Source: a virus. From it: a stretch of DNA of 26,812 nt. Position 1 is the stretch's first letter. Each line of letters begins with the position of its first letter. Shown here in pieces: positions 223 to 26,812 of this stretch. The translations under genes were made by a program, and so were the position numbers. The notes under the pieces were generated by a model that saw nothing but the letters and a program-made list of their open reading frames with translations, was not told the origin of the DNA and ran no database searches. Location: positions 1 through 26,812 of the IMG/VR virus record IMGVR_UViG_3300009124_000082, one strand, 5' to 3'.

Positions 223-253
223 TAAATATAAGGGTTTTACTTTTTAGTGTCAA
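223..253 (-). promoter_or_regulatory. Candidate promoter (TTG-N20-TATATTTA)
   Basis: On the minus strand TTG (251-253) is followed after exactly 20 bases by TATATTTA (223-230), about 40 bases before the ATG at 185. The layout resembles the Bacteroidota -33/-7 promoter (TTTG and TAnnTTTG). It overlaps the end of the upstream gene 237-914. Confidence 0.5.
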
Positions 254-1400: not shown

Positions 1401-1706
1401 TTATTTAGGATAGTCGTCAAGGTTAATACCCCTCTCCTTAAGACGTTGGTAAAACTGCTCGTGTACGGGGTTGTCGTCGTTGTATATCTCGTAACCTAAG
1501 TTAGTTAATATCTCCTCAGTATACATACCTATTCTTTTGTAGTTAACCTCGTTACCTTTAACCTCTTTAAGTGTAGTACCGTCGTCCTTATTACGACGAC
1601 TCCTACATACTTTACACTGACTATCTTTACCGTCACTTGAGATTGTACGGTTGTGAAACTCACTATAAGGTTTAACTATTTTACACCCGTTACACTTTTT
1701 TTCCAT
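1401..1706 (-). CDS. Zinc-ribbon protein related to the N-terminus of phage HNH nucleases, 101 aa
   Basis: Residues 5-35 carry two CxxC pairs (CNGC near residue 5 and CKVC near 31), separated by a segment with KPYSEFHNR and SSDGKDSQC. This is the usual treble-clef or zinc-ribbon module found at the start of many phage HNH endonucleases and stand-alone phage proteins. The rest (residues 40-101) has no His-Asn-His motif, so nuclease activity is not supported. It is more likely a DNA- or RNA-binding protein. The start follows AAAGAAAGTAAAAAAG and lies 21 bases after a TATATTTA motif at 1727-1734. The domain call rests on recognised spacing only. Confidence 0.6.
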   Translation of the reverse strand: MEKKCNGCKIVKPYSEFHNRTISSDGKDSQCKVCRSRRNKDDGTTLKEVKGNEVNYKRIGMYTEEILTNLGYEIYNDDNPVHEQFYQRLKERGINLDDYPK

Positions 1707-1720
1707 CTTTTTTACTTTCT

Positions 1721-1757
1721 TTACTATAAATATAGTCTAAAATTATATTTATATAAA
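1721..1757. promoter_or_regulatory. Two interleaved opposing promoter candidates
   Basis: TATATTTA occurs on the minus strand at 1727-1734 with TTT 20 bases upstream (1755-1757), facing the zinc-ribbon gene. It also occurs on the plus strand at 1744-1751 with TTA 20 bases upstream (1721-1723), facing the small-RNA candidate. The two sites occupy almost the same 37 bases, so polymerase could use only one at a time. Confidence 0.45.
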
Positions 1758-1939
1758 GTAACGGGGTTTTTTCTCTCAAGGATTTATTCATTCAAGTAAT
1801 ATGCCCAACCTTCTTCCCGGCATATATAACTTGTCATTACTTTTCCCCGTTACTTTTTTTTTTAACTTCGTTAATTAACGTTGTTTATTTATTCTTATAC
1901 ATAAGGAGGGGTGGTTTTTTAACCACCTCTTTTTTTTTT
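1755..1939 (+). ncRNA. Candidate structured small RNA, about 185 nt
   Basis: AAAGTAACGGGG (1755-1766) is perfectly complementary to CCCCGTTACTTT (1845-1856). Inside lies a second stem: CAAGT (1793-1797) pairs with ACTTG (1829-1833), and ATATGCC (1799-1805) pairs with GGCATAT (1819-1825), closing a 13-base loop. The first arm begins 4 bases after a plus-strand TATATTTA (1744-1751), where transcription would start. The unit ends in a strong intrinsic terminator (1905-1939). No reading frame of useful length covers it. Promoter, folded body and terminator together suggest an independent RNA gene. A long stem, a large unpaired bubble and an upper stem are vaguely 6S-like, but no homology is claimed. 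Confidence 0.5.
1905..1939 (+). terminator. Strong intrinsic terminator
   Basis: The stem AGGGGTGGTT (1907-1916) pairs with AACCACCTCT (1921-1930), with one G-U pair, around a TTTT loop. Ten T follow (1930-1939). It ends whatever is transcribed on the plus strand from about 1757, and there is no plus-strand protein gene upstream of it. Confidence 0.75.
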
Positions 1940-1943
1940 ATTA

Positions 1944-1974
1944 TTTACGTAAAAAACTTTTTACTGTATATTTA
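1944..1974 (+). promoter_or_regulatory. Candidate promoter of the HTH gene
   Basis: TTT (1944-1946), 20 bases, then TATATTTA (1967-1974) lie just upstream of the A-rich leader and ATG at 1992. The site comes directly after the small-RNA terminator, so the two plus-strand units are separate. Confidence 0.5.
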
Positions 1975-1991
1975 TTAAAAAAAGTAACAGT

Positions 1992-2273
1992 ATGGAAACA
2001 AGTAAAAAAGGGGCAAGTAAGTTAACACCCGAAAGAGTTAACGTGATTAAACAACTATTTCAGTTTAAGGACATTAAAGACGGTGAGATAGCACAGTGCT
2101 TCGGTGTAAGCAGAGAGTGTATTAACACAATACGTAACGGTCACCGTTGGGGTGACGTTACGGGTATTAAGGTAAAGACTGGTAACGACTTTAGACAATT
2201 TAGTAAAACTAAGGAGGACGTAATAAAAGACCAGATTAAAAAACAACTTATAAACCACCTAAAAGATTTGTAG
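1992..2273 (+). CDS. Helix-turn-helix protein, 93 aa
   Basis: Residues 28-52 form a clear helix-turn-helix: DGEIAQCFGVSRECINTIRN, followed by GHRW. The pattern (AxxFGVSRxxIxxIxxGxxW) is shared with the DNA-binding tail domains of phage homing endonucleases and with small phage regulators. The rest is basic and helical, with no nuclease motif, so it is probably a stand-alone DNA-binding regulator. It is the only plus-strand protein gene I support here, and it has its own promoter (1944-1974), the leader AAAAAAAGTAACAGT and a terminator (2296-2325). Being opposite to all other genes is typical of a phage repressor or early regulator, but its target is unknown. Confidence 0.7.
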   Translation: METSKKGASKLTPERVNVIKQLFQFKDIKDGEIAQCFGVSRECINTIRNGHRWGDVTGIKVKTGNDFRQFSKTKEDVIKDQIKKQLINHLKDL

Positions 2274-5445: not shown

Positions 5446-6918
5446 TTAATTTTGCTCTGTTCTAATCGGGTCGTTACCCTCTGTTGTTATAGTATCCCCA
5501 CCCTCACTTAATAAGTTATATGTAACCTGAGATGGAGATGGCGTTATGGTCGGTGTAGGTGTTGGTGTTTCCGTTGTTGTTAATGTAGGTGTTATAGTCG
5601 GTGTCGGTGTAGGTGTCTCCGTCTGTGTCTGTGTAGGAGTTAATGTAGGTGTTGCCGTCTGTGTCGGTGTAATAGTCTGTGTAGGAGTTATAGTAGGGGT
5701 CGGTGTCGGTGTAGGAGACGGTGGTATACACGTATAAACGTAGTCTAACGTACTATCTCCATTAAAGATAGCCACATATACATCTACACCGTCACTATAC
5801 CCGTAGTAGTTAGTATTTCCGTCTTTAACCCACTCACATCTTTCCATTGAGTAATCAGTTGTTGCTGACGTAGAGTACCATAAAGACTCCGCACTATCTC
5901 TAAAGTATAAGTTAACGTTGGCAACACCAGGCTCGTAACCCGCACCCTGTAAAGCCCTACATACGTCACTAATACTATTACCCGTAACCCCGTATTGTTT
6001 CGTTGTAAATACAGGGTCAGTATTACCACTCAAAGATAAACTAATACCTATAACAGGGTCGTTGTCCTTAGGAGCCCATATAGGTTTATTAACCACGTTG
6101 GTTGTACCGTCTTTATAATACTCAGTTACGGTTGCTGAGTAATACCCTGGCACTATAGGTGACTGACCGATGTTGGTATAAGTGTAAGCCGTTATAGGTG
6201 ATAGGTCAAAGTAACCGTAACCCTGACTTATAACTTGTGTTGGGTCTAAATATGTCTTAAATCCAGCCCACGTATTACCCGTTGTAATCTCTTTATAAAA
6301 AGTCTCACCAGACGCTCCTATTGACACGTTACAGGCGTTAGGGTCATTACCATATAGATTGTTGTTGTAACGTTGTATAACACCCGTTGTGATGTCCTCC
6401 ACTAATAAGTCAGGGAAACTATATTTCCATTCCCACTGTAACCTTGAGGCATTAGGCATAGAATACTTAAAGGCAACCATTGCTCTCTCCTCGTTAACTC
6501 CCTCCTCGTAATAAATAAAGTTGGCATTATTCTCGTTACTACTAATGTAAGTGGTAAACTCACCAGGTATAGTGTCGTCCTCCAGAACGGCTCTACCCTC
6601 CTCTAACTTGTCAAAGGCATATTTAGGGTCAGTACTATTCTGGTTAAACGTCTCGTATACTGAGTAATAGTGTTGTCCTTCGTGAGAAAATAAAACATAA
6701 GGTACGTCACCGGTATAACCCTCAGGTTCTTGACCTTCAATAAAGATAAACTCGTCGTAACGACTTGTACTTGTACTTACGTTTTTAGGGTAAAACCTTA
6801 CCTTCTCTTTACTTAATATGTGCTCAAAAGAAAATAAGTAGTTGGGGTTGTCTAACGTCTTATGTTGTGAGACCGTTACGACTAATCTATTTTCCTCGTT
6901 ACGTTTAATGTATAACAT
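5446..6918 (-). CDS. Virion protein with PT-rich repeat linker, 490 aa
   Basis: The N-terminal domain (MLYIKRNEENRLVVTVSQHK, residues 1-80) is a beta-rich module seen repeatedly in Bacteroidota and marine phage tail regions. The middle (residues 80-400) is Tyr/Asn/Thr-rich, probably beta-sandwich, and includes WYSTSATTDYSMERCEW. Residues about 402-470 are a Pro-Thr repeat (TPTPTITPTQTITPTQTATP and variants), followed by a short tail with GGDTITTEGND. Such linkers usually form extended stalks on the virion surface. The gene lies between the adhesin cluster and the fibre, so tail-tip or surface decoration is likely. The exact role is unknown. Confidence 0.6.
   Translation of the reverse strand: MLYIKRNEENRLVVTVSQHKTLDNPNYLFSFEHILSKEKVRFYPKNVSTSTSRYDEFIFIEGQEPEGYTGDVPYVLFSHEGQHYYSVYETFNQNSTDPKYAFDKLEEGRAVLEDDTIPGEFTTYISSNENNANFIYYEEGVNEERAMVAFKYSMPNASRLQWEWKYSFPDLLVEDITTGVIQRYNNNLYGNDPNACNVSIGASGETFYKEITTGNTWAGFKTYLDPTQVISQGYGYFDLSPITAYTYTNIGQSPIVPGYYSATVTEYYKDGTTNVVNKPIWAPKDNDPVIGISLSLSGNTDPVFTTKQYGVTGNSISDVCRALQGAGYEPGVANVNLYFRDSAESLWYSTSATTDYSMERCEWVKDGNTNYYGYSDGVDVYVAIFNGDSTLDYVYTCIPPSPTPTPTPTITPTQTITPTQTATPTLTPTQTQTETPTPTPTITPTLTTTETPTPTPTITPSPSQVTYNLLSEGGDTITTEGNDPIRTEQN
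5516..5725. repeat. Tandem repeat coding the PT linker
   Basis: Short degenerate units of 6-30 bases (GGTGTAGGTGTT-like on the plus strand) encode the Pro-Thr stalk of the 490-aa protein. Open frames on the other strand and in the other minus-strand frame exist only because of this repeat. Confidence 0.75.
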
Positions 6919-6921
6919 TAC

Positions 6922-7125
6922 CTAACTGCTTAAGTTGTTTATAGGGTCAATAAAATCTATTAGTGGTAATGTTTTCATCCATTCCAAATCACTGAACTCC
7001 ATCTCAGTCGTTGATATCACCCAATTCCCCTCATCATCTTGTATTGGATAATAATAAGTATCATCGGTGTATAAAACACCGACCAGTTGGTCTTTCTGTT
7101 GTTCTGTTAGTAATCCTACTTTCAT
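6922..7125 (-). CDS. Small acidic protein, 67 aa
   Basis: This acidic protein starts MKVGLLTEQQKDQLVGVLY and contains YYPIQDDEGNWVISTTEMEF. The order (an N-terminal helix with TEQQ, then a Tyr/Asp strand with NWVIS) resembles small proteins that sit beside fibre genes in Bacteroidota phages, possibly assembly helpers. It is 4 bases from the next gene and 2 bases from the adhesin gene, so it is co-translated with the fibre block. Unlike most of the window it uses many GAT and GAA codons, like the C-terminal part of the adhesin. The function is not established. Confidence 0.55.
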   Translation of the reverse strand: MKVGLLTEQQKDQLVGVLYTDDTYYYPIQDDEGNWVISTTEMEFSDLEWMKTLPLIDFIDPINNLSS

Positions 7126-26441: not shown

Positions 26442-26812
26442 TTATTTATTACTAATAAATATAGTATTAAATAAAAAAAATAAACTTAATACCAGTAATA
26501 AATATAATATTAAATAGTTGCCAGTAATATTGTTAGTTATATATGTTTCTATTTAGAGGTGGGTTCTTGAGTAGTACCCAACAGGTTATAGTAAACCTAT
26601 AGGGTCTGAACTACTAACCTAACTATTTGTCGGCCTGGTTATATTAAGTAAGGTAATATAACTTGAGAGTTCCCCTTTAACCCCTTACGGTCGTGATACC
26701 TGCGTCTCTCTTTGTTCTACAGTGTCTACTTTGTATGTACCCCGAGTAATAGACTTGACTAATAGTGTGCTCGGTGTCCTTCTTCCCCACACTACGTTAA
26801 TAAATATAAAAG
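26442..26812. other. Non-coding region with promoter motifs and hairpins
   Basis: I find no protein gene in these 371 bases. Minus-strand TATATTTA lies at 26456-26463, 26499-26506 and 26801-26808. Inverted repeats include TAGTGTG/CACACTA (26763-26769 and 26788-26794), GTTATATT/AATATAAC (26638-26645 and 26655-26662), AGGTT/AACCT (26583-26587 and 26594-26598) and TGGGT/ACCCA (26560-26564 and 26576-26580). No tRNA could be made out. It may hold a structured RNA read leftward from the 26801 motif, and it continues past the window edge. Confidence 0.5.

Follow-up and report, generated by a model that had tools for sequence, protein, structure and literature searches.

The window, the whole 26,812-nt stretch of a virus record analysed here (26.8 kb, GC 39%), carries the gene set of a typical tailed phage, including portal, terminase, tape measure and methyltransferase genes, nearly all of them on the minus strand. 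A predicted small-RNA gene sits in a divergent gap of this genome, between a zinc-ribbon gene and a helix-turn-helix (HTH) gene. Judged from its sequence, the segment 1744-1863 (+) is a small-RNA gene made up of promoter, closing stem, loop and T-run; it has its own promoter and intrinsic terminator and contains no ORF. The TATATTTA-type promoter motif also precedes other genes of the window phage. The strongest sigma-70-like promoter in the portion of the window that was scanned lies at 225-253 (-); this TTGACA-17-TATATT element has a -35 of E. coli type together with the TATATTTA box of the phage.

Table 1. Features of the small-RNA locus, in window coordinates
Feature	Position	Strand	Remarks
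Zinc-ribbon gene	1401-1706	-	Divergent from the RNA; endonuclease VII profile matched in part only
Promoter of small RNA	1720-1751	+	-33-like TTTA 1720-1723, 20-nt spacer, -7 box TATATTTA 1744-1751
-7 box of zinc-ribbon gene promoter	1734-1727	-	From sequence
Small RNA, ~109 nt	1755-1863	+	Predicted start ~1755, end within T-run 1854-1863; from folding and homologues
Closing stem 5' arm, AAAGTAACGGGG	1755-1766	+	From folding; covariation across window clade
Inner hairpin, CAAGU.AUAUGCC / GGCAUAU..ACUUG	1793-1833	+	5+7 bp, 1793-1805 with 1819-1833
Closing stem 3' arm, CCCCGTTACTTT	1845-1856	+	Runs into T10 (1854-1863)
Second intrinsic terminator	1903-1939	+	Hairpin ~1903-1934, then T10
Helix-turn-helix (HTH) gene	1992-2273	+	Downstream of the RNA; own TATATTTA promoter box at 1967-1974

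The predicted transcript and its setting

The closing stem doubles as a transcription terminator. Its 12 bp pair perfectly around a 78-nt loop (1767-1844), and the 3' arm runs straight into T10, so that the whole element, loop included, is an intrinsic terminator; the likeliest end of the transcript is therefore about 1863, giving 109 nt, and not 1939. The initial annotation had recognized the promoter motif, the closing stem, an inner hairpin and a downstream terminator with T10, all of which are present, the inner hairpin as 5+7 bp. It had further assigned the downstream terminator to a non-coding RNA of 170-190 nt. That length gives way to about 109 nt, since T10 directly follows the closing stem. 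The annotation had argued that no protein gene lies upstream of the downstream terminator; that terminator stands outside the conserved unit. It is absent from the relatives L004, L005 and L009 and is a phage-specific back-up, not the end of the conserved RNA.

The folded body proposed for this region is borne out thermodynamically, with folding z-scores of -6.9 for 1755-1939 and -5.3 for 1755-1863 and none of 200 shuffles folding as well. A descriptor combining promoter, long-range stem and T-run occurs once in the window; it was found in none of 60 dinucleotide shuffles of the window and none of 2000 shuffles of the intergenic stretch. Run on 799 kb of phage DNA, the same descriptor picks up homologues.

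Set against L005, the block of zinc-ribbon gene, RNA and HTH gene (window 1443-2240, L005 4856-5564) is flipped relative to its flanks in the window, and the gene order of L004, L007 and L009 likewise shows the window block as inverted. Elsewhere in the window the portal protein looks split: 3193-4302 matches residues 11-331 and 10461-12257 matches residues 368-510 of the same portal profile, and in Nonlabens phage P12024S one portal gene corresponds to both pieces. The second piece is additionally fused to a head-maturation protease-like domain. A prokaryote genome collection queried with the two portal proteins returned no relatives that would point to a host.

Conservation of the RNA gene in two phage clades

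Close relatives carry the same RNA gene under changed sequence. We obtained them by portal, terminase and neighbour-gene searches of a viral collection, and promoter-plus-stem scans found the gene in eight close or intermediate relatives. A divergent zinc-ribbon gene, a TATATTTA-like promoter, a closing stem at the expected start and a T-run recur in L004/L007, L005/L006, L009, L104, L008 and L010/L011, the zinc-ribbon gene adjoining the RNA in close and intermediate relatives alike. Within the window clade the arms read AAAGTAACGGGG, AAAGGAGGGGGG, AAAGTAGAGGGT, AAAGAGGGGGG, AAAGTAGGGTGT, AGGGAGGGG and GAGGGGTTAA. Across seven window-clade phages, 95.2% of closing-stem cells are paired and 10 of the 12 pairs show changes on both sides, giving a covariation score of 0.758 against 0.266 in shuffled and at most 0.31 in slid controls. 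The compensatory changes that the initial annotation made the measure of its two stems thus preserve the closing stem; the details of the inner hairpin are not kept among relatives. A nucleotide search of named phages with the window locus returned chance low-complexity matches only. In L008 (3772-4278) and L010 (8601-9134), a small ORF with a nucleotidyltransferase-like GSxxxG...DxD motif begins right after the T-run of the RNA; it had no Pfam match above cut-off.

A distant phage clade yielded about 33 distinct sequences of the RNA. These came from a promoter-anchored stem scan, applied to loci with 36-38% portal identity and then to 80 further loci reached via the next structural gene. Stems run from AGAAGGGGTGG to GAGCCGGTTGGA, GGGAACCCGA and TGCTACCGGC, unrelated sequences in which pairing is kept. 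Among 29 RNAs (261 cells), 98.9% of cells are paired. Both sides have changed in 94 cells, where shuffles give 19.8, and the covariation score is 1.056, compared with 0.245 shuffled and at most 0.32 slid; pairs were counted on arms and core joined at equal length because a whole-RNA MAFFT alignment misplaces the 5' arms of this clade. Across the family the closing stem measures 9-13 bp, and the interior hairpin, weak in some members and missing in others, is not conserved. When only the stem was scanned for, most hits were unrelated terminators, and an element in L118/L131 was not counted as a copy because it follows a gene.

The promoter is conserved together with the place at which the RNA would begin. 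In 20 of 30 distant relatives TTTG precedes TATATTT[AG] by exactly 18-20 nt, compared with 25% of all such sites, and this -33/-7 layout is one that we take to be the Bacteroidota promoter type. The 5' arm begins 3-6 nt past the -7 box in 26 of the 30, and the position that the initial annotation had given the first arm, just where transcription would start, is held in relatives. Its proposal of an undescribed phage small-RNA gene is upheld by the compensatory changes, by the conserved promoter and start, and by Rfam, whose families, 6S-Flavo and c4 (RF01695) included, gave no match in the window (gathering thresholds or E<=10) or in relatives of either clade. Distant-clade RNAs used as nucleotide queries of named phages gave only a weak promoter-like match in Flavobacterium phages. 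Computation thereby establishes the gene, its covarying structure, its promoter and its place.

Within the distant-clade loop, one short motif is nearly fixed. GCCA occurs in 31 of 33 distinct RNAs, usually as AUUGCCAU, with variable flanks. In the window clade the GCCAU core is not clearly kept: L004 and L009 read CCCAUUUUA, L008 reads UGCUAU, and the window and L005 are ambiguous. Both clades share promoter, arm at +1, closing stem, T-run, size class and a location beside the same last structural gene. We treat them on these sequence features as one architectural family, with the GCCAU seed established for the distant clade only. Two further hairpins resemble the family. In L127 (12755-12850), a phage without a matched window protein, a AAAGACGGGA...TCCCGTCTTTTTTTT hairpin lies directly 3' of a TATATTA box and may represent an independent RNA built on the same plan. 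L103 has a comparable closed hairpin (6733-6799), placed directly upstream of the early gene X described below (6894-7094) and not beside the zinc-ribbon gene.

Complementarity between the loop and early genes

Distant-clade loops are complementary to the site where translation of a phage mRNA begins. We scored contiguous pairing of each loop against every gene start in complete or long distant-clade contigs, and the repeatedly best-paired start belonged to an early gene, X, encoding a protein of about 75 aa with the motif IxRQSQLxRxLEY; neither PHROGs nor Pfam gave a family matching it above cut-off. The near-invariant loop GCCAU is complementary to the X start codon. Of 25 phages, 11 have X as the best-matched start and 18 have it in first or second place (Fisher p 3e-6), and cognate RNA-X pairing scores above swapped pairs (permutation p 1.2e-4); all target p-values given here ignore shared ancestry and are optimistic, although the permutation test, which includes swaps among close relatives, errs on the conservative side. 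When pairs are anchored on GCCA:UGGC, bases beside the invariant core also vary in step with the cognate target (p 1e-4 at offsets -1 and +5 to +9; p 0.013 over all flank positions). An all-gene target search, not restricted to X, gives a weaker signal (p 0.003) driven by the phage G008.

ATGGC opens 22 of 36 X genes, compared with 12 of 194 other ORFs, and the phages that lack GCCA (G006 and G022) have X genes without an ATGGC start as well. In G008 the seed is CGCCAU and X begins ATGGCG, a U-to-C change in the seed being met by a GCA-to-GCG change in X. Four distant phages do not fit: their X starts ATGGAA and their RNA retains GCCAU. The G008 loop (L222/L223) also carries a perfect antisense match of about 20 nt to the start of a second gene, MAKYYKQNNDAKFDFDLS (record 31342-31866, -), possibly a recent capture of target sequence into the RNA.

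For the window itself, the candidate target lies beyond the ends of the record. Position 980 of contig L036 corresponds to window position 12 at the left end and position 2321 to window position 26812 at the right end. These matches flank X (L036 1207-1419), which suggests that the window genome is circular or permuted and that about 1.3 kb, X included, is absent between its right and left ends; X is not found in the 26,812 nt. Against its own genome the window RNA reaches a longest complementarity of 12 nt, a length equalled by 25 of 100 shuffles, and nothing rises above shuffles. The 5' UTR of the HTH gene (AAAAAAAGTAAC, 1977-1988) pairs with RNA positions 1849-1860 over 12 nt, no better than chance. 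As a general window-clade target, the HTH gene offers a 13-nt match in L009; the comparison covers only four phages, and 2 of 24 permutations are as good. On contig L036 an early gene has a 5' leader to which the L004 loop is fully complementary along 18 nt; the longest match in 300 shuffles is 16. L004 and L036 are evidently one phage, because about 130 nt are common to the contig ends.

We think it probable, from these sequence relations, that the element is a stand-alone phage small RNA whose loop serves as an antisense seed blocking translation of early phage mRNA, chiefly that of X. Host RNA polymerase would start at about 1755 from the Bacteroidota-type promoter. The first dozen bases would pair with the last dozen before the T-run, forming one large closed hairpin with an accessible loop, and the paired 5' and 3' ends would keep the antisense RNA stable. 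The seed in the loop would then mask an early phage mRNA, chiefly that of X, at its start codon or 5' leader and block translation initiation or ribosome entry. Transcription, stability and repression are the parts of this account that we infer.

Other readings and known phage RNAs

The invariance of the loop motif could instead reflect protein binding. The hairpin would offer GCCA, or the equivalent motif, for binding by a protein of phage or host, for instance as a decoy, and the start-codon match would be a by-product of genes whose products begin MA. Such a role would account for a nearly invariant GCCA between variable flanks, for its placement within a small hairpin (UAGAUUGCCAUCUA) in some phages, and for the four phages that retain GCCAU opposite an X without ATGGC. 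Against it, the flanks co-vary with the cognate target, the match of seed and codon survives a change in G008, and G006 and G022 lack both GCCA and the ATGGC start; we regard it as unlikely, if worth keeping in mind. A 5' leader or attenuator, in which the long-loop terminator would halt transcription into the downstream gene (here the HTH gene) unless an antiterminator acts, appears quite improbable. The stem followed by T10, the same-strand HTH gene downstream in the window clade and the ORFs that follow the T-run in L008 and L010 all suit a leader, but the HTH gene has its own TATATTTA promoter, a second terminator stands between it and the RNA in the window, and several distant-clade members (L018 and L027, for example) have a convergent next gene, so that there is no co-oriented gene to lead.

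Two further classifications fare worse. That the element is an ordinary long-loop terminator beside a chance promoter, with no RNA function, gains something from stem arms (AAAG...GGGG) resembling the window phage's other terminators; we hold it very improbable given the conserved promoter spacing, arm position and loop motif, the lack of an upstream gene to terminate in the window clade, and a descriptor that shuffles never reproduce. The initial annotation had offered three roles, of which antisense regulation draws evidence from the relatives and a 6S-like RNA that binds host RNA polymerase now seems scarcely credible. A closed-end hairpin with a large unpaired interior recalls 6S RNA, but there is only one closing stem, the far side of the bubble is not closed by another long duplex, the unstructured loop differs freely in length and content from relative to relative around a kept motif of 4-6 nt, and no 6S or 6S-Flavo model matches even at permissive thresholds. 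6S-Flavo is a Bacteroidetes RNA of about 108 positions (PMC2864571). The window RNA is similar to it in size and general shape only, being phage-encoded where 6S-Flavo is bacterial and lacking the two long duplexes that flank an open bubble in 6S. The 6S-Flavo model (RF01685) gave no match at any threshold used, in a comparison whose control genomes contained no 6S-Flavo copy and so provided no positive control.

The antisense reading has parallels among phage RNAs. In phages P1 and P7, loop complementarity of the c4 antisense RNA (RF01695) blocks phage mRNA translation around the ribosome-binding site; the 68/69-nt sar antisense RNA of P22 base-pairs where translation of a phage gene begins; and lambda OOP RNA, 77 nt, is a short phage transcript with its own promoter, antisense to a phage regulator (PMC12197685). 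The RNA described here resembles c4 in being phage-encoded with a loop complementary, in the distant clade, to a phage translation start, and resembles sar as a small phage RNA of similar size with start-codon pairing. It differs from c4 in having its own promoter and terminator and no covariance-model match, and from OOP, which is cis-antisense to cII, belongs to other phages and hosts, and has no sequence relation to it. The partner of c4 is ant, in place of which the early gene X would stand here. Whereas sar is transcribed opposite its target, RNA and target here are separate loci and their pairing is short. On the most economical reading, the RNA would act like c4 and sar; it is not related to either by any test made.

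These results suggest an undescribed RNA family in many viruses of (probably) Bacteroidota bacteria. Phage-made small RNAs are known mostly from temperate phages of gamma-proteobacteria, and we found no small RNAs of Bacteroidota phages described in the literature searched. With promoter, arm at +1, closing stem and T-run as a search rule, such genes can be found even where their sequences are not similar. In more than 20 phages RNA and target appear to co-vary, which provides a natural test set for base-pairing control in a group whose small-RNA chaperones and translation signals are little known. The broadest version of the proposal, which we hold with evenly divided confidence, is of an RNA family distributed across an extensive lineage of aquatic phages whose hosts are (probably) Bacteroidota: a closed hairpin built on a terminator stem from +1, with a seed co-evolved with the start codon of an early gene, would time early expression by translational repression in trans and have second targets in some members. 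On the antisense reading, viruses of this lineage would shut down a gene of their own by means of a small RNA.
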